Source: Lutibacter sp. B2
Lineage (GTDB): Bacteria > Bacillota > Clostridia > Peptostreptococcales > Thermotaleaceae
Length of the DNA stretch: 64,000 bases
Direction of reading: 5' to 3'
NCBI GenBank assembly: GCA_015686845.1
Contig: JADPRS010000002.1
Coordinates: 1 to 64,000, forward strand
Under the pieces are notes generated by a model. That model was not told the origin of the DNA and searched no databases. It saw only the letters and a list, made by a program, of their open reading frames with translations. The position numbers and the translations under genes are program-made. This document shows positions 4,465 through 55,053 of the stretch, piece by piece (the first letter of the stretch is position 1; each line of letters starts with the position of its first letter).

Positions 4465-4752
4465 TCATACTTTTACCTTCTTATAGTCTAGTACATGACC
4501 TATTCTTATAATCTCAAATACTCCTTGAACAGAAATTTTAGCCTGCCTAATCAAGTTAACCGCTTTTTGTAAGTCTGGTTGTTGTATATAAATAGCAGTA
4601 TGACAGGACTTTGCTACAGCCCTTGGGGCTTTTCTAAAGGTATTTTTTATTCCATTTCTTCTAAAAAGTTCTTCTATATAATAACCATGATAATTTGAAG
4701 TAAAAACAAATAAATATTTTTCATTATCATATACCAAATTAATCATCTCCAC
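4465..4752 (-). CDS. DUF3343 family small protein
   Basis: A 95-residue soluble protein matching the DUF3343 pattern: an N-terminal strand YLFVFTSNYHGYYIEELF, a mid-protein PRAVAKSCHTAIYI block with one cysteine (Cys49), and a C-terminal VQGVFEI segment. The family has been discussed as a possible selenium or sulfur carrier because it co-occurs with selenium metabolism; that is literature knowledge, not shown here. It stands alone between two terminators. The start is uncertain: GTG 4752, ATG 4746, or TTG 4737, the last being best spaced from a GTGGAG sequence. Confidence 0.7.
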   Translation of the reverse strand: MEMINLVYDNEKYLFVFTSNYHGYYIEELFRRNGIKNTFRKAPRAVAKSCHTAIYIQQPDLQKAVNLIRQAKISVQGVFEIIRIGHVLDYKKVKV

Positions 4753-18453: not shown

Positions 18454-19803
18454 CTATTTTAATAATTTTGCATGTATTGCTAAGGAACATTCTATTCTTT
18501 TCTTTTCCATTTCACAGCCCAATTCATAAGGTTGATTTATATTCTTATGGAAATTATATGCATTTGCATGGCATCCTCCACTACAATAGAATTTTGCCCA
18601 GCAATCATTACATTTTTCTTTCGTATATACATTCGCATTCTTGAACTCTTCACCAATGGTAGAATTTATCTCGTCTTCAAATACACTGCCCATTTTAAAC
18701 TTTTCATTTCCTACAAATTGATGACATGGATAAATATCCCCTTCTGGCGTAACCGCCATATATTCTGATCCAGCACCACAACCAGATAAACGCTTAATAA
18801 CACAAGGTCCTTGGTTTAAATCTATCATAAAATGGAAAAAGCTAAAACCTTTCCCTTCTTTTTTTCTTTTCACATATTCTTTTGCAAGGGTCTCATACTC
18901 ATTAAAAATTTGAGGTAAATCTGCTTCTCTAATAGCATAGCTTTTTTCTCCCGCTTCTACTACTGGTTCTATAGAAGTACTCTCAAATCCAAGATCTGCC
19001 AAGTGTAGTACATCTGATGAGAAATCTAAATTTTCTCTTGTAAAGGTTCCTCTCACAAAATAGTTCTTTCCATTTCTCATGTTAGCCATTTTTTGGAATT
19101 TAGGTATAATTACATCATACGTACCATCTCCATTAATTGTATACCTCATATTATCATTTACTTGTTTTCTTCCATCTATACTTAATACCACATTGTCCAT
19201 ATTTTCATTTATATAATTCATTTTTTCATCATTTAATAAAACACCATTTGTAGTTATAGTAAATCTGAAATTTTTACGGGTCTCCTTTTCTCTTGCTCGT
19301 CCATATTCAACTAATTTTTTTATAACTTCAAAATTCATCAAAGGTTCTCCACCAAAGAAATCCACTTCTAAATTTTTCCTATTACCTGAATTCTCTATTA
19401 ATAAATCCAATGCTTTTTTTCCTACTTCTTCACTCATCAAACTTCTTTGACCTTTAAAGTCTCCTTGGGATGCAAAGCAATATTTACATCTAATATTACA
19501 ATCGTGCGCTATATGAAGACATAGCGCTTTTATTACAGGCTTTCTGTTTACAAAAGAAGAATGATTTACATAAGTATCCTTACTATATAATAGTCCTTCT
19601 TTTTCTAAAAATTTTATTTCTTCTATGGCCTCTACTATTTCCTCATCAGAGTACTTATTCTTTAATTTATCAATTATTTGTTCCTTCGATATTTCCTTAT
19701 AATCATCTAAAATTTCATATATTATTTGATCTATAACGTGTACAGATCCACTATTTACATCTAAAACTATTTTTACATCATCAAATTGAAATTTATGAAT
19801 CAT
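18454..19803 (-). CDS. scfB: SCIFF peptide thioether-forming radical SAM maturase
   Basis: Modifies the SCIFF precursor by forming Cys-to-residue thioether bonds. The 449-residue protein has an N-terminal peptide-recognition-like domain (1-85) and a radical SAM motif CNIRCKYC (Cys102, Cys106, Cys109). The GGEPL block is near 146-150. The C-terminal SPASM domain binds auxiliary clusters (CGAGSEY, YPCHQF, CNDCWAKFYCSGGC). It matches the TIGR03974 group by layout. The gene lies 94 nt downstream of the SCIFF precursor, past a hairpin with a T-run that should make the maturase less expressed than the peptide. The product's biological role is unknown even in studied clostridia. Confidence 0.92.
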   Translation of the reverse strand: MIHKFQFDDVKIVLDVNSGSVHVIDQIIYEILDDYKEISKEQIIDKLKNKYSDEEIVEAIEEIKFLEKEGLLYSKDTYVNHSSFVNRKPVIKALCLHIAHDCNIRCKYCFASQGDFKGQRSLMSEEVGKKALDLLIENSGNRKNLEVDFFGGEPLMNFEVIKKLVEYGRAREKETRKNFRFTITTNGVLLNDEKMNYINENMDNVVLSIDGRKQVNDNMRYTINGDGTYDVIIPKFQKMANMRNGKNYFVRGTFTRENLDFSSDVLHLADLGFESTSIEPVVEAGEKSYAIREADLPQIFNEYETLAKEYVKRKKEGKGFSFFHFMIDLNQGPCVIKRLSGCGAGSEYMAVTPEGDIYPCHQFVGNEKFKMGSVFEDEINSTIGEEFKNANVYTKEKCNDCWAKFYCSGGCHANAYNFHKNINQPYELGCEMEKKRIECSLAIHAKLLK

Positions 19804-32613: not shown

Positions 32614-32710
32614 TGGCGGGAATATGTGAGAATCGAACTCACCTAAGACGCTACTAACGTCTCAAACTGGTTTTGAAGACCAGAGGCAACACCAGCCACC
32701 ATCTACTCCC
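32614..32710 (-). tRNA. selC: Selenocysteine tRNA (anticodon TCA)
   Basis: A 97-nt tRNA reading GGGAGTAG at the 5' end and ending GCCA at the 3' end, with CCA encoded. The anticodon stem-loop is CTGGT-CTTCAAA-ACCAG with anticodon TCA (32674-32676 on the plus strand reads TGA). There is a long variable arm (AGACG/CGTCT), and the T-arm reads GTGAG-TTCGATT-CTCAC. Length, extended acceptor and long variable arm are typical of bacterial tRNA-Sec. It reads UGA with SelB and has its own promoter (32740-32768) and terminator (32581-32610). selA and selB lie 2.6 kb and more upstream on the same strand. Confidence 0.97.
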
Positions 32711-32922: not shown

Positions 32923-33168
32923 TTATACCACATCACTTTTGAATATCCCCGATTCAATTTTATTGGCAGCTTCAACCTCTACTTCACTATATATATGAGA
33001 ATACAAATCTAATGTAATTCCTATAGAGGAATGTCCTAATCGTGTTGATGCTACCTTTGCTGCTACTCCGTATTTCAACAATAATGATACATGAGTATGT
33101 CTTAGATCGTGACATCTTATTTCTTTTAATTCATGTGCCTTTAGAAAACTCGTGAATCTATTTTGCAA
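32923..33168 (-). pseudogene. Tyrosine recombinase (phage integrase) C-terminal remnant
   Basis: Only the last 80 or so residues of a lambda-Int-family integrase remain. They contain HDLRHTH (catalytic His-x-x-Arg), LGHSSIGITL (second His) and LYSHIY (nucleophile Tyr). The N-terminal DNA-binding and core domains are missing. The frame opens just after a TAA about 9 nt from the stop of the DEAD-box gene, so the upstream part was deleted. It cannot be an active recombinase. It lies between selC and the helicase, suggesting a past integration or excision near the tRNA gene. Confidence 0.85.
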
Positions 33169-35235: not shown

Positions 35236-37134
35236 TTATTCTTTCAAAACCCGTACTTCTCCTACTCTTTTTGTAATCTTATTCTGATCTAAAAATTCTA
35301 ATAATGGTAATACATATTTTCTTGTAGTTTGAAGGCTATCCCTACATTGTGATAATGTAATAGAACCATTTTGTTTGATATGATCTAAAATCTGCTTAAT
35401 CGCATCTTGATAATTTTCCATATGAAATATAATATCCTCATTAATTTTTATCAATTCATTACGATCAATCATTGATTGCATAACTTGAAAACATTCTTTT
35501 GAATCATCCATTTCTTGTAAAGCTTCATCTATAGAAGGGGTACTAAACCTATTTTTCAAATACATATTTTCTAATTTTTCCTTTATTTTCTTCTGTTTTT
35601 CTGTGTAGCGTACTTTGAAATCTGCAAGTGCTATAAATTTGTTCTCTAATTTTAAAATTTTGTTTTCAGTAAAATAGTTGATCAAATCATCATATATCTT
35701 TATTTTTAAATTAGGCGTAATTTTATTTCTTAATTCTTCTCTTCCCATTCCACCTTTTAGTGGATACTCTTTGTGAAATAAAGTCAATATATTTATAATA
35801 CGTTCTTTTAAGTCTTGTAAATACAATTTATGTACGATTGTATTGTCCGAGAAAATTTCTACTTTATTTTCATTTATAAATTTTTCTATAATATTCTTCA
35901 CTTTCTCTATTTCTTCCCCGGTTTTCAATGCAAAAAAAGTAATTGTTTCAAACTTATTGCTACCTTTTTTTATTGTTTCTTCTATGATTTCTTCTATATC
36001 TCCTTGCTCTTTTATTTTCAAATGATCAATTATTTCATTTTTGTATCTTTTATGCTTAAAAGGTACCGAGTCTAAAATAATTCCTCCTCCAATGGTTTCC
36101 ATAGGTGAATAAAACCTGATTACAACATGGTCTCCTCTTTTTGCAACGATTTCTTCCTCTAGCCTTAACTGTGCATGACAGCTTTCTCCAGGATTCAATT
36201 CTTCTCTATCTAATAAAACAACCCTACACAAAACTTCACTTGTTCCATGATATAGTCTAACCCTACTTCTATTTTGTATCATTCTCTTAGACTTTTTCAA
36301 TAAATTCAGTTTTATATCTAACATCATGGTTGTCTTAAGTGCACCTTCTATGCTTAACACATCACCACGTTTAATCTCTTCTTTTTTTACATTTGCTAAA
36401 TTAATAGCCACTCGTTGTCCTGCATATGAGGTTTTTACACCCACTTCATGTACTTGTAAACTTCTTACTCTCGTTTGTATTCCCTCAGGATATATGGTAA
36501 CTTGATCTCCTTCATTAAGCATTCCTTCTATTTGCGTGCCTGTAACAACCGTTCCAAATCCAACAATCGTAAAGACTCTGTCTATAGGTAACCGAACTGG
36601 TAAATTACTATTTTTTGTCTCTGTTTCTTCCGTCATTTTGTCCATTAATTGAATTAAATTTTCTAATCCTTCTCCCTTTGTAGCGGATACTGGTACGATT
36701 GATGCATTTTCTAAAAAAGTACCAGCTACTTCTTCCCTTATATCTTCTTTTACTAACGCTAACCAATCTTGATCTACTAGATCCGTCTTTGTAAGGACTA
36801 TAATTCCTTTTTTAATATCTAAAATAGATAAAATATCTAAATGCTCCCTAGTTTGAGGCATAAATCCTTCATCCGCTGCAACAACCAATAATACGATATC
36901 AATGCCGCCAACTCCAGCAAGCATATTTTTAATAAATTTTTCATGGCCAGGAACATCAATGATTCCTGCACTTCTTTTACTTGGTAAAATAAATTGTGCA
37001 AATCCTAGTTCTATTGTAATTCCTCTCTTTTTTTCTTCTTTTAAGCGGTCAGGATCTGCTCCTGTTAATGCTTTAATTAATGTGGTTTTTCCATGATCAA
37101 TATGTCCTGCTGTTCCAATTATGACATTCTTCAA
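35236..37134 (-). CDS. selB: Selenocysteine-specific elongation factor
   Basis: Special EF-Tu-like GTPase that delivers Sec-tRNA-Sec to UGA codons next to a SECIS hairpin. The 632-residue protein starts MKNVIIGTAGHIDHGKTT (G1). It has DVPGHE (G3), LTKTD (G4), EF-Tu-like domains 2 and 3, and C-terminal winged-helix domains (about 370-632) that bind the mRNA hairpin. I chose TTG 37134, 8 nt after GAGG, one base beyond the selA stop; the GTG at 37143 lies in the ribosome-binding site. This tight coupling supports one selA-selB transcript. Confidence 0.96.
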   Translation of the reverse strand: MKNVIIGTAGHIDHGKTTLIKALTGADPDRLKEEKKRGITIELGFAQFILPSKRSAGIIDVPGHEKFIKNMLAGVGGIDIVLLVVAADEGFMPQTREHLDILSILDIKKGIIVLTKTDLVDQDWLALVKEDIREEVAGTFLENASIVPVSATKGEGLENLIQLMDKMTEETETKNSNLPVRLPIDRVFTIVGFGTVVTGTQIEGMLNEGDQVTIYPEGIQTRVRSLQVHEVGVKTSYAGQRVAINLANVKKEEIKRGDVLSIEGALKTTMMLDIKLNLLKKSKRMIQNRSRVRLYHGTSEVLCRVVLLDREELNPGESCHAQLRLEEEIVAKRGDHVVIRFYSPMETIGGGIILDSVPFKHKRYKNEIIDHLKIKEQGDIEEIIEETIKKGSNKFETITFFALKTGEEIEKVKNIIEKFINENKVEIFSDNTIVHKLYLQDLKERIINILTLFHKEYPLKGGMGREELRNKITPNLKIKIYDDLINYFTENKILKLENKFIALADFKVRYTEKQKKIKEKLENMYLKNRFSTPSIDEALQEMDDSKECFQVMQSMIDRNELIKINEDIIFHMENYQDAIKQILDHIKQNGSITLSQCRDSLQTTRKYVLPLLEFLDQNKITKRVGEVRVLKE

Positions 37135-37135
37135 T

Positions 37136-38557
37136 CTATTCACCTCTTTGCTGTTTGAATATATTCTTGAAACATTTCAAAATGATTTCAAATTCACTTT
37201 CTTTTATGGTTCTTACATCTATCAATATTTGATCTTCGTTAATTCTTGCAATGATGGGAATTTCATTATTTCTTAACATTTTTTCAAATTTATTTGCAGA
37301 TATATCCTGAGGTTTTATTTTAATCAATGTAGTTGGAAGCATTTCTAGTGGCATTGATCCTCCACCAACTTGAGAGTACCCTTTAACTTTCTCTATCGCA
37401 CATTGTTTAACTTCTTTTACCAAAAGTTCATATAAAATATTTGCTTTTTCTTCTATTTCATCTAACGTATATGTAATCATTCTTAAGGTTGGTATATCTT
37501 TTATAACTTCCTCTTCATTCAAGTATAATCTAAAAGTAGCTTCTAATGCAGCAAAGGTAAGCTTATCTACTCTAATGGCTCTAGTAAGTGGATTTTTTTT
37601 CATGTTATCTATATATTTTTTCTTTCCTATAATGATCCCTGCTTGTGGTCCTCCTAATAATTTATCTCCACTAAATGTTACAATATCTGCTCCTGCTTTA
37701 ACACTTTCCTGTACTGTCGGTTCTTTTGTTAATCCATATTTAGAAAAATCTATCAAAGTTCCACTTCCAATATCTTCTATAACAGGGGTATCATATTTTT
37801 CTCCGATCGATACCATTTCTTTCAATGAAACTTCTTTTGTAAAACCCAGTATTTTATAATTACTAGTATGTACTTTTAACAATATGGCCGTATCTTCATT
37901 TATTACATTTTCATAGTCAGAAATATGAGTTTTATTGGTAGTTCCAACCTCGACAAGTTTTGCTCCACTTTGTTCCATTACATCAGGAATTCTAAAAGCC
38001 CCCCCTATTTCTACTAGCTGTCCACGAGATACGACCACTTCTTTTTCTTTTGCTAATGTACTTAATACAAGCATAACTGCAGCAGCATTATTATTTACTA
38101 CCATAGCAGATTCGGCTCCCGTCAACTTCGTTATAACTTCTTCAATATGGGCATATCTTGATCCTCTTTTTCCAGTATTTACATCGAATTCTAGTGTAGA
38201 ATAGTTATTAGCTACATTCCAAATATCTTCTTTGATCTTATCACTCAATAATGCTCGTCCTAAATTTGTATGAAGAACTACTCCAGTTGCATTAATTACC
38301 CTTCTTAAATTCATTCTATTTTTCTTTTCTATATCCATAATTATATTATTTATTAATTCCACATGCTCTATTTTAAAATTATCAATATTTTTCTCCGTTA
38401 AGTTAATAATATCCGTTCTAATTTTATCAATATTTTCTCTAGCAGCTTCTAAAATAATGCCCCTTGCTACTTTGCTAAATAAGCTTTTAATTTTTTCATC
38501 GTTCAATAAATCATCAATCTTGGGTATCAAACTAAATAAATCCTTTTTAGTAGTCAT
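37136..38557 (-). CDS. selA: L-seryl-tRNA(Sec) selenium transferase
   Basis: PLP-dependent decameric enzyme converting Ser-tRNA-Sec to Sec-tRNA-Sec with selenophosphate. The 473 residues show NATGVVLHTNLGRA (about 86-99), RGSRYAH, the SGDKLLGGPQAGI block with the PLP-binding lysine (about 284), and RAIRVDK. ATG 38557 is 8 nt after GGGAG; an upstream GTG (38566) lies on it. It is followed by selB with 1 nt between. A TATAAT with extended TG lies upstream. Confidence 0.97.
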   Translation of the reverse strand: MTTKKDLFSLIPKIDDLLNDEKIKSLFSKVARGIILEAARENIDKIRTDIINLTEKNIDNFKIEHVELINNIIMDIEKKNRMNLRRVINATGVVLHTNLGRALLSDKIKEDIWNVANNYSTLEFDVNTGKRGSRYAHIEEVITKLTGAESAMVVNNNAAAVMLVLSTLAKEKEVVVSRGQLVEIGGAFRIPDVMEQSGAKLVEVGTTNKTHISDYENVINEDTAILLKVHTSNYKILGFTKEVSLKEMVSIGEKYDTPVIEDIGSGTLIDFSKYGLTKEPTVQESVKAGADIVTFSGDKLLGGPQAGIIIGKKKYIDNMKKNPLTRAIRVDKLTFAALEATFRLYLNEEEVIKDIPTLRMITYTLDEIEEKANILYELLVKEVKQCAIEKVKGYSQVGGGSMPLEMLPTTLIKIKPQDISANKFEKMLRNNEIPIIARINEDQILIDVRTIKESEFEIILKCFKNIFKQQRGE

Positions 38558-38588
38558 GCTTACCACTCCCGTTTGATTATTTTATAAA

Positions 38589-38718: not shown

Positions 38719-40116
38719 ATGAATAGCTTTACGAATCTAGTTGGCATAATAGGTAGCTTTGCTTGGGGTCCAATTATGATTGTGCTTTTAGTTGGAACTG
38801 GTTTAGTTCTAACCCTAGGTACAAGAGTAGTACAATTTAGGAAACTTGTATATGCATTTAAACTTTTATTCTCAAAAGACCATACTGGCGATGGTGATAT
38901 TACTCCTTTCCAAGCTCTTATGACTTCTTTAGCTGCTACGATAGGAACTGGTAATATTGCAGGAGTTGCTACAGCCATTGCCGTAGGTGGTCCAGGTTCT
39001 ATTTTCTGGATGTGGGTTACTGCTGCTGTTGGCGGTGCTACAAAATTTGGTGAAGCATTACTTGCAGTAAAATATAGGATTACAAATGAAAAAGGTGAAC
39101 AATCCGGTGGTCCTATGTATTATGCTAGTATAGGTATGGAAGATAAATATGGTGGAAACTGGAAATGGTTAGGATGGGCTTTTGCATTTTTCGGATTTAT
39201 CGCTTCTTTTGGAATTGGTAATATGGTTCAATCTAATTCAGTTGCTTCTGCTTTAAATAGTTCTATGGGGATTTCTACTTCAATCTCTGGTATCATTATC
39301 GCAATCGCTACTGGTTTGGTAGTTGTTGGCGGAATCAAAAGTATAGGTAAAGTTACTGAAAAAATTGTACCTGTAATGGCTGTAATTTATGTTATTGGTG
39401 CTCTCATTGTATTATTATCTAACGCATCACAAATTCCTGTAGCTTTTGGAATGATCTTTTCAAATGCCTTTAACGCTACTGCTGTTGGTGGTGGACTTAT
39501 AGGTACTGTTATTCGTATGGGTGTTGCTCGTGGTGTATTTTCAAATGAAGCAGGACTTGGTAGTGCGCCTATTGCACATGCGGCTTCTAAAAATAATGAT
39601 CCTGTAAAACAAGGTATTATTGGTTCATTAGGATCTTTTCTAGATACACTTGTTGTCTGTACAATGACCGCTTTAGTTATATTAGTATCTGGTCTTGTTA
39701 AAATTGGTGGAGATGGTTTAATGTCTATTACAGTTGATCCATCTACTGGTGAATCATTTACTGGTGCAGCTTTAACAGCAACAGCATTCAGTGAGGCTCT
39801 TCCAGGTTTTGGTGCTTTTATCGTTTCTTTCGGGTTAGTATTCTTTGCTTTTTCCACAATATTAGGATGGTATTATTATGGCTCTAAGTGCCTCGAATAT
39901 ATAGCTGGCGTAAACGCTATTAACATTTACAAATGGCTATGGGTAATTCTTACTTTTGTAGGTGCAACAATGAAAATAGGTCTTGTTTGGGATTTATCAG
40001 ATGCATTTAATGGCTTAATGGCTATTCCAAACTTAATTGCATTGCTTGCACTCAGTCCTATTATATTTAAAATGACGAAGGAATATGAAAAAAAGCAAAT
40101 CGAAAAAATTAATTAA
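38719..40116 (+). CDS. Sodium:alanine/glycine symporter (AGCS family)
   Basis: Integral membrane carrier importing alanine or glycine with Na+. The 465 residues have about 11 hydrophobic segments. Family blocks include FQALMTSLAATIGTGNIAGVA (about 72-92), GGPMYY and GRTIVF-like segments, here seen as GVARGVFSNEAGLGSAPIAHA (about 268-288). A strong GGAGG is 7 nt before the ATG. It lies alone on the plus strand between selA and selD, with a bidirectional terminator after it. The exact substrate is not resolved. Confidence 0.93.
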   Translation: MNSFTNLVGIIGSFAWGPIMIVLLVGTGLVLTLGTRVVQFRKLVYAFKLLFSKDHTGDGDITPFQALMTSLAATIGTGNIAGVATAIAVGGPGSIFWMWVTAAVGGATKFGEALLAVKYRITNEKGEQSGGPMYYASIGMEDKYGGNWKWLGWAFAFFGFIASFGIGNMVQSNSVASALNSSMGISTSISGIIIAIATGLVVVGGIKSIGKVTEKIVPVMAVIYVIGALIVLLSNASQIPVAFGMIFSNAFNATAVGGGLIGTVIRMGVARGVFSNEAGLGSAPIAHAASKNNDPVKQGIIGSLGSFLDTLVVCTMTALVILVSGLVKIGGDGLMSITVDPSTGESFTGAALTATAFSEALPGFGAFIVSFGLVFFAFSTILGWYYYGSKCLEYIAGVNAINIYKWLWVILTFVGATMKIGLVWDLSDAFNGLMAIPNLIALLALSPIIFKMTKEYEKKQIEKIN

Positions 40117-40146
40117 AATAAGGCATCCTTCTGGATGCCTTATTTT
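40115..40146. terminator. Bidirectional terminator between the symporter and selD
   Basis: A perfect 14-bp stem (AAAATAAGGCATCC arms) with a TTCT loop, overlapping both convergent stop regions. Confidence 0.92.
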
Positions 40147-41174
40147 ACATATATAAACTTTTCTTGTTTTTCTATAACCTCTCCAACTACTGCAAATTCC
40201 GTAGTAAGATTTTCATTATAATAATTGACAAAATCATTTACTTTCTCTTTATCAACAGAAATCAACAATCCTCCAGACGTTTGAGGATCATATAAAATAT
40301 CTTTTATGTAAGTTGAAACTGTAGATTCAAATTCTATATCTTTCCCTACATATTTTTCATTGGCATAGGCGCCTGCAGGAATTAATCCCATTTTAGCATT
40401 TTCAATTACACCTTCAAGAATGGGTAGTTTATTAGATTGAATTACAAAAGATACCTCACTAGCCTTTGACATTTCTACCCCATGTCCTAAAAATCCAAAA
40501 CCAGTAATGTCAGTACAAGAATTTGCTCCTATTTTTTCCATTGCATCAGCAGCTACATTATTTAAGTTAGCCATTACATACATAGCCTTTTTTGTAAAAT
40601 CATCAGATAATATTCCAGCTTTTATTGCAGTGTTTAAGATACCTACACCTAAGGGCTTTGTTAATATCAGCACATCTCCAGGCTTAGATAAATTATTACT
40701 CATTACTTTTTCTGGTGAAATAATCCCTGTAACAGATAATCCATATTTAGGTTCATTATCATCTACACTATGTCCACCTACTAAAAGGGCTCCTGCCTCT
40801 TTTACTTTATCTGCACCACCCTTTAAAATTTGTCCAAGTATGTCCATAGACAAACAAGTAGGAAAACATACTATATTCATAGCTACTATAGGTTTTCCGC
40901 CCATTGCATAAACATCACTTAATGAATTTGCTGCTGCAATCTGTCCAAACATATATGGATCATCAACGATTGGCGTAAAAAAATCTAAGGTTTGTATAAT
41001 TGCCGTATGATCATCTAATTTATATACAGCAGCATCATCTGAATTTTCTAATCCTACTAATAAATTTTCATGCTCTATTTTTGGTAAATGACACAAAACT
41101 TGTGCCAAGGCTTCTGGGCCAATTTTAGCCGCTCAACCTGAACTTCTCGTCATCTCTGTTAATCTTTTAGACAA
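40140..41174 (-). CDS. selD: Selenophosphate synthetase with in-frame UGA (selenoprotein)
   Basis: Makes selenophosphate from selenide and ATP for SelA and for selenouridine. The gene is longer than an ordinary frame search suggests. From TTG 41174, with GGAGGGG 6 nt upstream, it reads 13 codons, then TGA (41133-41135), then continues AAKIGPEALAQVL to 40140. The TGA is read as selenocysteine 14, in the place of the catalytic Cys of E. coli SelD, with the partner Lys at 17. Further blocks are SDDAAVYK, FFTPIVDDPY, GGHSVDD and LYDPQTSGGLL. It follows comEA by 27 nt. Without suppression it would make a 13-residue peptide. Confidence 0.95.
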
Positions 41175-41201: not shown

Positions 41202-41813
41202 TTACTGTGTTCTAATATGTTCTTCTATACTTTTAAATTTTTTATCTCCTATACCAGCTACATTCATTATATCACGAACATCTTTAAACCTTCCATTTTT
41301 TTCTCTATACTCTACAATTCTCTTTGCAAGGACACTCCCTACGCCATCTAACACTTGTAGTTCTGTATCAGAAGCAGCATTAATATTTATTTTTTTAGAA
41401 CTTGTTTTCGCATTCCTTTCATTACAGACATCTTCACTAGCTTCCCCTATTTTCGGAATATAGATTTGTTCACCATCTTCTAATACCCTAGCTAAATTTA
41501 CACATTTTCTATCAGCAGTAGGTAATATTCCTCCTGCTAAGTTTATTGCATCTATTAATCTTGCCCCCTCATCCAACTCAATTACTCCAGAATTTTTCAC
41601 TTCTCCACATAGATCAACCATAATATGTTTGCCTATTTTCTCTTCTTCAATTTCTTTATTAACTTGTACCTCTTCCTCATCTTCATCATCCTCTATTTTT
41701 TCATATACAATATCACTTGACATATTTTTATGATAAGTTACGCCCATAGATAAACAAATAAAAATCGTCAAAACTCCTACTATAATAAATTTATATTTTT
41801 TATTTTTTTCCAT
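41202..41813 (-). CDS. comEA: ComEA-like helix-hairpin-helix DNA-binding protein
   Basis: A 203-residue membrane-anchored DNA-binding protein. It has an N-terminal hydrophobic segment (about 8-24), an acidic linker (EDDEDEEEVQVN), and an SLBB-type domain (about 65-120, DLCGEVKNSGVIELDEGARL). The C-terminal helix-hairpin-helix pair is NINAASDTELQVLDGVG and IMNAVGIGDKKF-like (here NVAGIGDKKF). ComEA binds incoming DNA at the cell surface in competent bacteria; many clostridia keep it without proven competence. ATG 41813 has GTAGGGG just upstream. Confidence 0.88.
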   Translation of the reverse strand: MEKNKKYKFIIVGVLTIFICLSMGVTYHKNMSSDIVYEKIEDDEDEEEVQVNKEIEEEKIGKHIMVDLCGEVKNSGVIELDEGARLIDAINLAGGILPTADRKCVNLARVLEDGEQIYIPKIGEASEDVCNERNAKTSSKKININAASDTELQVLDGVGSVLAKRIVEYREKNGRFKDVRDIMNVAGIGDKKFKSIEEHIRTQ

Positions 41814-42004
41814 ATTTTCCCCTACTTTCAAATTCCATTATCCTCTTATTATTTTTCAGGTTATCTATAAATTATTCATTATAATTGTATAAATATTTTA
41901 TTTTTATACACAAATATGTTTTTTTCATAAATTTTTCTTAAATTTCTTTTTATTTTTTGTTATACTAGTAAAGTAACTTTAATTTTAGCATAAGAGGTGA
42001 CTTG

Positions 42005-45519: not shown

Positions 45520-47982
45520 TTATTTTACTACTATATTAACTAATTTTTTTGGCACTGCAATAATTTTTACAATTTGCTTACCTTCTATTGCAGATACTAT
45601 TTTATCATTTACAAGTGCTTCCTTTTCCATTTCCTCTTTGCTTAAATTAGATGAAATCGTCATTCGATCTTTTACTTTTCCATTCACTTGAATGACAATA
45701 TCTATTTCATCTTTTACGATTGCAGCTTCTTCATATTTAGGCCATGCTTGATTATGAACGCTTGTCTCATATCCTAATATACGCCACAATTCTTCTGTAA
45801 TATGAGGTGCAAAAGGAGCGATTAGAATAACCAACGTATCTACAGCTTCTTTTAATAGATCACTATTTTTATTTTCAATTTCTTTATATTTATAAATTTC
45901 ATTTACAAGTTCCATGATTGCACTAATAGCAGTATTAAAATTAAATCTTTCTTCAATATCTTCTGTTACTCTTTTAATGGTATTATGTATTGTATATTTT
46001 AAATGCTTATCTTCTTTTGTCATATTGGATTGTACTTCTTTACAATTTATAGAATCTTTTAATTCTACAACTACTCTCCATACTCTATTTAAGAATCTAT
46101 GGCATCCATCTACACCTGTATCACTCCACTCTAAATCTCTTTCTGGAGGGGCTGCAAATAATATAAACAGTCTTGCTGTATCCGTACCATATTCATCAAT
46201 AATTTCTTTAGGACTTACTACATTTCCTTTTGACTTAGACATCTTAGCACCATCTTTTAAAACCATTCCTTGCGTTAAAAGATTTTCAAATGGTTCTGAA
46301 ACAGGAGAATGGCCAAGTTTATGTAATACTTTTGTAAAAAATCTTGCATAAAGAAGATGTAGTATTGCATGCTCAACACCACCAATGTATTGGTCTACCT
46401 TCATCCAATATTTTGCTTTGTCTTTATTAAATATCTCTATATCATTATTTGCATCTGTATATCTTAAGAAATACCAAGATGAGTCTACAAACGTATCCAT
46501 TGTATCCACTTCTCTTTTAGCTTTCTGCCCACATTTAGGACAGTCTGTATACATAAATTCTTCGCTCGTTGTTAATGGTGACTCTCCTTCACCTGAAAAT
46601 ACTACATCAGTAGGTAGTTTCACTGGTAAATCACTTTCATTTATTGGAACCATTCCACATTGATCACAATATACAATAGGAATTGGTGTGCCCCAATATC
46701 TTTGTCTTGAAATAAGCCAATCTCTTAATCTAAAATTAATTGTTTTCTTTCCTAATCCCGATTCATTTAAATGCTCTACTATTTTTGTACTTGCTTCTTT
46801 ACTTGATAATCCATTGAATTCTCCTGAATTAATCATAACACCGTTACTTGTAAATGCCTCTTCTAAATGATCCAAATCAACCTTATCATCTTCAGGTTTT
46901 ATTACTGGAATAATATCAATATTATATTTTTTTGCAAATGCAAAGTCTCGATCATCATGTGCTGGTACTGCCATAATTGCACCTGTACCATAATCCATAA
47001 GTACATAATTTGCTATATAAACAGGTATTCTTTTTCCATTTAATGGATTAATTGCATACTTACCTAGGAATACACCTTCTTTTTCTACATCCGTAGCAGT
47101 TCTTTCTATTTCAGATAAATGTTGTAATTTATCTTTGAAATTCATTACTTCTTGTTCATATTCTGTTCCCTTTACCCACTCATTTACAAATGGATGCTCC
47201 GGTGCTAAAACCATGTAGGTAACACCAAAAATTGTATCTGGTCGAGTAGTAAATACTTCTAATTTTTTATAAGCGCCTTCAATTTCAAAGTTGACTTCTG
47301 CCCCTACACTTTTTCCAATCCAATTCTTTTGCATTGTCTTAACTTTTTCAGGCCAACCCTTTAACTCTTCTATATCTTTTAATAATTCATCTGCATAATC
47401 AGTTATTTTAAAATACCATTGCTCTAAATCTTTTTTACCAACTAGACTATCACATCTGTCACAGAATCCTCCCACTACCTGCTCATTTGCTAATACAGTT
47501 TCACAAGAAGGACACCAATTTACTGCATATTTCTTTTTATATGCCAATCCATTTTTATAGAATTGTAAAAATATCCATTGAGTCCATTTATAGTAGTCTT
47601 CATGACAAGTAGCTACTTCTCTATTCCAATCATAGCTAAGTCCTAATTGTTTAAATTGATTTCTCATTTCCTCAATGTTTTCCCATGTCCACTTATTTGG
47701 ATGGATGCCATGCTTAATAGCAGCATTCTCAGCAGGTAATCCAAAAGAATCCCAGCCCATTGGATGAAGAACATTATATCCTTTCATCTTTTTAAATCTT
47801 GCAACTACATCCCCTATTGAATAATTTCTAACATGTCCCATATGAAGCTTTCCAGATGGGTAGGGAAACATTTCTAGTACATAATATTTTTCCTTTCCTT
47901 CATCTGATGTCTCAAATGCATTTGTGCTTTCCCAATTTTTTTGCCATCTTTTTTCAATCTCTGAAAAATTATAATGTGTCAT
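45520..47982 (-). CDS. leuS: Leucyl-tRNA synthetase
   Basis: Class I synthetase charging tRNA-Leu. The 820 residues include the HIGH-type HMGH in [15 protein letters not shown] (about 37-51), a CP1 editing domain with TTRPDTIFG and ADHDDRDF-like block (here PAHDDRDFA), KMSKSKGN (about 580-587), and an anticodon-binding domain. A zinc-type CPSCETV...CDRC segment is near 158-180. GGAGGA precedes the ATG. Expression is controlled by a T-box leader (48040-48236) with a CUU specifier. Confidence 0.97.
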
Positions 47983-48039: not shown

Positions 48040-48236
48040 AAATTTCCCGTCCCATAGTAGGGACGAGGAACTCCCCGCGGTACCACCCTAATTGACATAT
48101 AATGTCCTCTTTCATAGTTTGTAAAGGTAACTAACCTATTTGATCGAGGTAAGTTCAAATGCTCACTTTATCGATTCACACCAACCATCGACTCTCTTAA
48201 AAAGCTACACATTCTACTACTCCCCTGTTTTTATAT
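48040..48236 (-). promoter_or_regulatory. T-box leader of leuS (specifier CUU, Leu)
   Basis: Minus-strand leader with Stem I base GGGGAGTAGTAG near 48210-48226. A specifier loop of pattern GAA-CTT-ACC holds the codon CTT at 48151-48153, a leucine codon that fits leuS. The conserved T-box AGGGTGGTACCGCG is at 48076-48089, and a terminator stem CGTCCC/GGGACG is at 48048-48065. Uncharged tRNA-Leu would favour the antiterminator and raise leuS. A promoter probably lies in or before the 3' end of rsfS. Confidence 0.92.
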
Positions 48237-53845: not shown

Positions 53846-54544
53846 TTAAAACAATTGCTTATGTTTTTTTATATGTCCTTCATATAAATCTGGACGTTTT
53901 TCTTTCGTAATTTCGATTGCCTTTTGCTTTCTCCAGCTATCAATTTCTTTATGATTTCCTGATAATAAAACATCTGGTACTTTTAATCCTCTAAAATCAC
54001 TCGGACGTGTATAATGAGGATATTCTAGTAACCCAGAATAGATGGATTCATCTGTATAGGACTCTTCTTGTCCTAATACACCATGAATCATCCTAGAGAC
54101 TGTATCGATTACAACCATGGCAGGTAATTCTCCACCCGTTAGGACATAATCTCCAATTGATATTTCATCGGTTACCCAATAATCGATCACTCTTTGGTCA
54201 ATTCCTTCATAATGCCCACATAAAAAAATAAGCCTTTCTTCTTTCGCTAATTCTTTAGCAATCGATTGACTAAATATTTTCCCTTTAGGAGACATATGTA
54301 TTACCTTACAATCTTTAGCGCTTATATTTTCTAAGACATTAAAAATAGGCTCTGCTTGCATAACCATTCCAGCGCCTCCACCATAAGGATAATCATCTAC
54401 CTTTTTATGCTTATTTTGGGTAAAATCTCTTATATTTAGAACATTAATATCTAGCAATCCTTTTTTTCTTGCCCTTCCTATAATACTTTCTCCAAGAGGT
54501 ACCTCAAACATATTGGGAAAAAGCGTCAGAACATCTATCTTCAT
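53846..54544 (-). CDS. trmD: tRNA (guanine-N1)-methyltransferase
   Basis: Methylates G37 of tRNAs with SAM, preventing frameshifts. The 232-residue protein shows the SPOUT blocks MKIDVLTLFPNMF, DDYPYGGGAGMVMQ, CGHYEGIDQR and SIGDYVLTGGELPAM, forming the trefoil knot. Its ATG overlaps the rimM stop (ATGA), so the two are translationally coupled. Confidence 0.97.
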   Translation of the reverse strand: MKIDVLTLFPNMFEVPLGESIIGRARKKGLLDINVLNIRDFTQNKHKKVDDYPYGGGAGMVMQAEPIFNVLENISAKDCKVIHMSPKGKIFSQSIAKELAKEERLIFLCGHYEGIDQRVIDYWVTDEISIGDYVLTGGELPAMVVIDTVSRMIHGVLGQEESYTDESIYSGLLEYPHYTRPSDFRGLKVPDVLLSGNHKEIDSWRKQKAIEITKEKRPDLYEGHIKKHKQLF

Positions 54545-55053
54545 TCGATCAATCCTTCAATTAACTTTACAATAATCTTACCTTCTTCGATATCCACTTT
54601 TTTTATAAACTCTTCTACAACTGGAATAAGTATTGTTTTTGTAGGATTTTTTTCACTCGTAATTTCATATAAATCGTTTGCTGTTCCTTGAATAACATTT
54701 TTTAATTTTCCTATCAATTCACCTTCAACAGAATAAACATCAAGTCCGATTAAGTCAACAATCAAATATGTATCCTCTGGTAAAATTCTTGCATCTGCTC
54801 TATCTATTGTCAAATATTTATTTCTATATAATTCAGCTGTATTACAATCATCAATTCCCTTAATTTTTAATATAACTAAATTATTTTTATATCTTACTTT
54901 CTCAATGTAAAATTTTTCTTCAATATTTCCATCCATATAAACCCATTCTAGCTCTTCAAATCGTTCTTTATAATCACTTAATAGATATACCCTTACTTCA
55001 CCACGAATTCCCTGCGTATTTACAATTTGTCCAACTTTTAAAAGGTCTTTCAT
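54541..55053 (-). CDS. rimM: Ribosome maturation factor RimM
   Basis: Binds S19 and assists 30S head maturation. The 170 residues have the N-terminal VGQIVNTQGIRGEVRVY block, and a C-terminal PRC-barrel domain (about 95-170, TYLIVDLIGLDVY). GAGAGGTG precedes the ATG. It lies between khpA and trmD. Confidence 0.95.
   Translation of the reverse strand: MKDLLKVGQIVNTQGIRGEVRVYLLSDYKERFEELEWVYMDGNIEEKFYIEKVRYKNNLVILKIKGIDDCNTAELYRNKYLTIDRADARILPEDTYLIVDLIGLDVYSVEGELIGKLKNVIQGTANDLYEITSEKNPTKTILIPVVEEFIKKVDIEEGKIIVKLIEGLIE

Follow-up and report, generated by a model that had tools for sequence, protein, structure and literature searches.

Selenophosphate synthetase gene selD of a clostridial genome as a probable selenoprotein gene with an in-frame UGA at the catalytic position

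Introduction

Is the selD gene of Lutibacter sp. B2 itself a selenoprotein gene, i.e. one whose in-frame UGA codon is read as selenocysteine (Sec) in the active site of the enzyme? The question is raised by a selD reading frame that is interrupted by one TGA codon and lies on the minus strand of the stretch of DNA analysed here, 64,000 nucleotides of contig JADPRS010000002.1 (hereafter, the window). The original prediction, made from the sequence of the window, answered it in the affirmative. Homology, conservation of the codon, a covarying hairpin and a complete Sec-decoding set support this answer, and the gene almost certainly codes for an ordinary Sec-containing selenophosphate synthetase of Clostridia, in which Sec would be inserted at the UGA by means of the hairpin downstream.

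Among these bacteria a SelD that contains Sec is widespread and has been described before. In two surveys (PMC5029168, PMC13188914) only one other bacterial selenoprotein family is more common; the former counts 394 such proteins from 383 bacteria and ranks them behind formate dehydrogenase. In a further study (PMC4561486), 19% of the SelD genes found in a reference set had Sec, the position being always identical. SelD also appears for Clostridium difficile and C. perfringens in a published table. The practical value of the present analysis is the correct gene model for an already known selenoprotein.

Gene model of selD and position of the UGA codon

The selD gene (selenide, water dikinase) was located at positions 41174-40140 of the minus strand. 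Its frame, running from TTG 41174 to the stop codon at 40142-40140, was confirmed to contain a sole internal stop, the TGA at 41135-41133. With this codon read as Sec the product comprises 344 residues and gives a full-length match to TIGR00476 (397.6 bits, cut-off 125). Translation past the TGA yields AAKIGPEALAQVL, identical to the sequence given earlier, and the motif GGAGGGG, resembling a ribosome-binding site and reported upstream of the TTG, was read at 41187-41181 of the minus strand, 6 nt 5' of the start codon. The number of the UGA codon is uncertain, because an in-frame ATG at 41189-41187 is also a possible start: the predicted codon 14 holds for TTG 41174, and the UGA becomes codon 19 if translation begins at the ATG. 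Numbering from TTG 41174 is used below.

When ORFs are called mechanically, the gene begins at TTG 41108 and its product of 322 amino acids is devoid of the active site, with both Sec14 and Lys17 missing, just as had been pointed out for an automatic annotation. The record of the gene should therefore span 41174-40140 and carry a Sec exception.

The UGA (41133-41135, minus strand) had been placed at the catalytic Cys position of SelD, with the active-site Lys three residues further on. Both assignments agree with the alignment to chain 3u0o_A, which we take to be SelD of E. coli: up to this point the alignment is gap-free, the UGA coincides with Cys17 and query Lys17 with Lys20, presumably the catalytic residues of the E. 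coli enzyme. The best solved relatives by sequence were 3u0o (query residues 3-334 aligned, E = 3.8e-73) and 2yye, presumably SelD of Aquifex (E = 2.3e-70), whose chain 2yye_A has the near-identical context RSSGCAAK around the UGA and Lys positions. The window protein thus has the family and the catalytic Lys in common with the Cys-type SelD of E. coli and differs in the predicted Sec14, where the latter has Cys17. No difference was seen from the family "Selenophosphate synthetase" (TIGR00476, motif UxxK) as described in PMC13188914, the window showing a TIGR00476 match and the motif U-A-A-K.

Conservation of the UGA codon among relatives

A TGA codon is one base away from TGC or TGT, and the frame might represent a pseudogene or a sequencing error, in which a Cys-type selD has only recently acquired the nonsense codon. 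Alignment with other SelD sequences, proposed earlier as a check, points the other way: TGA occupies the site in 102 of 104 distinct homologous loci and TGC in two (one site per locus, by strict motif pattern; 110 SelD loci minus six identical over 410 nt). The sample is weighted towards near relatives, since its 80 named loci are the best 80 of 567. The TGC loci, L105 from a sheep rumen MAG and L106, are 53-54% identical to the window SelD. In the 14 other same-family genomes with SelD, the best matches are 67-76% identical over nearly the full length. Moreover, when the organism's own genome (77 contigs, 98.38% complete) was searched with the protein and TIGR00476, no second SelD was found, and hence no intact Cys-type copy, named in the original prediction as evidence against it, that could replace the one with the UGA. 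The sole other match was a weak relative with AIRS domains; we take it to be a purM-like gene because of these domains and the ORFs beside which it lies, read as putative purF and purN. A recent mutation or an error is exceedingly improbable as the source of the TGA.

Across the relatives, 51 of 59 genomes (own included) harbour SelD at E <= 1e-20; 50 of their 52 matches have exactly one internal TGA and two have none, and 49 of the 51 SelD-bearing genomes possess the Sec type only. At the level of the class, 59 of 243 genomes had a SelD match at E <= 1e-40, and the 61 matches comprised 38 with one TGA and 23 without an internal stop, the latter being taken as putative Cys-type. Counted by genome, 36 of these 59 had the Sec type only, 22 had matches without a stop and one had both; the two samples share some genomes, and copies more distant than the E limits fall outside the counts. 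Two SelD matches with in-frame TGA were present in genome G013 (the second copy at 47% identity) and in G128, and G194 had one match with TGA along with one without a stop.

Sec-decoding genes and gene neighbourhood

A complete Sec-decoding set is present within the window, all on the minus strand. It consists of selA for L-seryl-tRNA(Sec) selenium transferase (37136-38566; TIGR00474, 634.4 bits), selB for the Sec-specific elongation factor (35236-37143; TIGR00475, 384.4 bits) and the tRNA-Sec gene selC with anticodon TCA (32614-32710; ARAGORN; Rfam RF01852, 69.7 bits against a gathering threshold of 47). Two further members of known selenoprotein families were seen on contig C77 of the same genome (locus L112), namely grdA with one in-frame TGA and grdB, whose frame ends at a TGA followed by GTCTRC. 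The use of UGA as a general sense codon was considered and rejected: of the 57 ORFs picked as genes, one (54541-55053, presumably rimM) is terminated by TGA, and UGA is therefore not evidently a general sense codon.

Some other features of the window may be recorded here. A small protein with the domain PF11823 (Se_S_carrier, DUF3343) is encoded at 4465-4752 of the minus strand; a role of this protein in selenium or sulfur trafficking is proposed in PMC5322559. About 210 bases from tRNA-Sec, at 32923-33168 of the minus strand, lies a partial gene for a phage-type integrase, of which only the C-terminal part (PF00589) is present. Exact copies of tRNA-Sec, including its 3' end (12 bases or longer), were not found in the window except for one internal 12-mer.

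Directly upstream of selD, a comEA-like gene is located at 41202-41831 of the minus strand (TIGR00426, 62.9 bits, cut-off 53.1; TIGR01259, 110.4 bits, below the cut-off of 152.35). Between selD and selA, a sodium:alanine symporter gene occupies 38719-40116 of the plus strand (PF01235, 485.1 bits). The pattern scan pointed to a hairpin resembling an intrinsic terminator at the end of selD (40114-40147, minus strand; 15 pairs, T-rich tail), the only one found, against a mean of 0.5 (sd 0.9) in shuffles. Given the symporter gene on the opposite strand and this terminator-like hairpin, selD is probably not co-transcribed with selAB in this genome.

In the best 80 of 567 relatives, selD has selA nearby in at least 72, selB in at least 69, the comEA-like gene in at least 26 and the symporter in at least four; these are lower bounds, since flank lengths vary and selB matches below 28% identity were left out. 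The nearest named organism among the matches listed, a Marinisporobacter sp. MAG (L032), has a SelD with 76% identity and TGA at the equivalent codon. It resembles the window in the comEA-like gene upstream, the symporter between selD and selA, and selA with selB downstream; the two differ in where the frame starts and in gene spacing, with nothing of consequence seen. Elsewhere in the window, a radical SAM protein with a SPASM domain, possibly a peptide-modifying enzyme, is encoded at 18454-19803 of the minus strand, and a T-box leader (RF00230, 107.9 bits) at 48056-48234 of the same strand lies just upstream of the same-strand ORF 45520-47982, read as leucyl-tRNA synthetase.

Hairpin downstream of the UGA codon

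A search for a bacterial SECIS hairpin just 3' of the TGA had been suggested, with a lack of such folding regarded as counter-evidence. A SECIS-like hairpin was found at 41107-41089 of the minus strand from folds, pair counts and synonymous-codon controls. Its 8-bp stem is formed by 41107-41100 and 41096-41089 and closed by the apical loop GUU (41099-41097), at a spacing of 33 nt between the UGA and the loop. The bacterial SECIS limits, as given in PMC13188914, are a loop of 3-9 nt, a stem of 4-16 bp, a spacing of 16-37 nt, G in the first two loop positions and a minimum free energy (MFE) at or below -7.5 kcal/mol. The window hairpin conforms in loop (G first, then U), stem length and spacing; its bare stem has -7.0 kcal/mol against the limit of -7.5. 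Longer segments, of 51-66 nt and with the complete hairpin inside, reach -13.6 to -19.1 kcal/mol. For the window alone, dinucleotide shuffles were not decisive (z from +0.84 to -1.92 over five choices of ends), and, out of 2000 synonymous permutations of the gene, 60 did as well as the native stem with its -7.0 kcal/mol.

The hairpin could also be a by-product of codon and amino-acid constraint, with the real signal situated elsewhere, for example in the other helix predicted beside the UGA. Indeed, the lowest-energy 62-nt fold of the window has a second stem-loop, the outer helix of which includes the U of the UGA, and RNAalifold returned no consensus structure on all 102 rows of Sec-type homologues. 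The pairing in the same alignment (99 distinct rows) speaks for the hairpin itself. The share of paired cells in its helix is 83.6%, where shuffles give 71.5% and slid registers 28.1-48.3%, and 116 cells are changed on both sides, versus 53.7 and 14-61, respectively; the count includes one extra outer pair, absent in the window and unformed in 49 of the 99 rows, and the shuffles ignore the relatedness of rows. Of the 99 distinct rows, 44 show changes on both sides of pair 33-43. Five measures were taken for the structure as a whole, and two of them were not above shuffles, namely pairs with a double change (183/500) and further pair types (120/500). At least seven of eight pairs are kept in 82 of the 102 rows; the remaining 20 are without the stem in this register, and some Clostridium rows have none.

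The effect may extend to the protein. Ala24 (or the equivalent residue) has a codon whose wobble base pairs with the first base of codon 28, and residue 28 covaries with that base; the pair is broken in only two of the 82 stem-keeping rows. Cys (36), Ser (22), Gly (21) and Arg (3) occur at position 28 in these rows, and nine residues are found there in the other 20. It looks as if RNA pairing constrained residue 28 of SelD (alignment columns 33/43).

Folding was further compared with synonymous permutations that keep both protein and codon usage, in 48-nt windows over the first 597 nt past the UGA of every second sequence (51 of 102). Mean z was about -2.0 in windows 1-3, -1.10 and -1.44 in the next two and -0.54 to +0.41 beyond; the selD studied here had z of -2.91 in its first 48-nt window. 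The excess does not reach beyond about 70 nt past the UGA. A strict bSECIS test was passed by 69 of 102 native rows versus 225 of 5100 permutations (238 of 5100 in a rerun), and failed by 33 rows, the window included; a bSECIS-like stem at or below -7.0 kcal/mol was present in 82 of 102 native rows versus 283 of 5100 permutations. Native sequences thus fold better than coding constraint would require, and an origin of the hairpin as a mere by-product is unlikely. The Clostridium Sec-type selD loci L048, L049, L050, L052 and L059 showed a very weak bSECIS-like stem, or none, in the strict test.

It may further be supposed that Sec plays little part, with the UGA read through as an ordinary amino acid such as Cys without any SECIS, or with translation starting at TTG 41108. 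Stop-free homologues do exist (23 of 61 class matches, with TGC in L105 and L106), and a third of the Sec-type rows (33 of 102) are without a hairpin that passes the strict test. Against this stand the presence of tRNA-Sec, selA and selB, the selection on the hairpin beyond coding, the loss of Sec14 and Lys17 upon a start at TTG 41108, and the two TGC loci, which have no such stem (best +1.2 kcal/mol). Read-through or a downstream start is very unlikely to account for the gene.

Dependence of SelD on its own product

With Sec insertion as the preferred reading, the ribosome would meet the UGA at codon 14, and the downstream hairpin would recruit SelB with Sec-tRNA(Sec). Selenocysteine would be inserted instead of termination, giving the 344-residue enzyme, whose Sec14 and Lys17 would match the catalytic Cys17 and Lys20 of E. 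coli SelD. SelD would make selenophosphate, used by SelA for more Sec-tRNA(Sec), and full-length SelD would in this way depend on its own product. We infer Sec insertion at codon 14, the enzymatic activity and the feedback loop with its size from sequence data.

The original prediction went beyond the evidence in calling the pathway autocatalytic and in stating that SelD needs selenocysteine. Stop-free homologues in the class (23/61), together with the two homologues carrying a Cys codon at 53-54% identity, indicate that Sec is not chemically necessary to the SelD family. Since homologues without the UGA exist, "selenium-gated feed-forward loop" would be the better term. A few Cys-bearing read-through products could start such a loop. 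Thiophosphate-driven insertion of Cys is known from mammalian work, and no bacterial case surfaced among the entries listed by one literature search on thiophosphate and Cys insertion. Self-dependence itself is an old idea: the title of a 1996 PNAS paper, as it appears in a reference entry of PMC8659212, asks about an autoregulatory mechanism.

A more speculative proposal, and a long shot, is that selenium activation in these Clostridia may act as a bistable positive-feedback switch, the sole SelD found being Sec-dependent. If so, once its full-length SelD was all gone, a cell could restart only if the loop were seeded, by a trickle of UGA read-through or by Cys inserted on tRNA-Sec, and selenium status would be remembered over generations. 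The idea is testable because a Cys-type back-up is often undetected (Sec type only in 49 of 51 SelD-bearing genomes among relatives and in 36 of 59 genomes of the class sample). The first synthesis of a Sec-dependent selenophosphate synthetase poses a real and general puzzle, and Clostridia with no detected Cys-type copy would be good places to test it.
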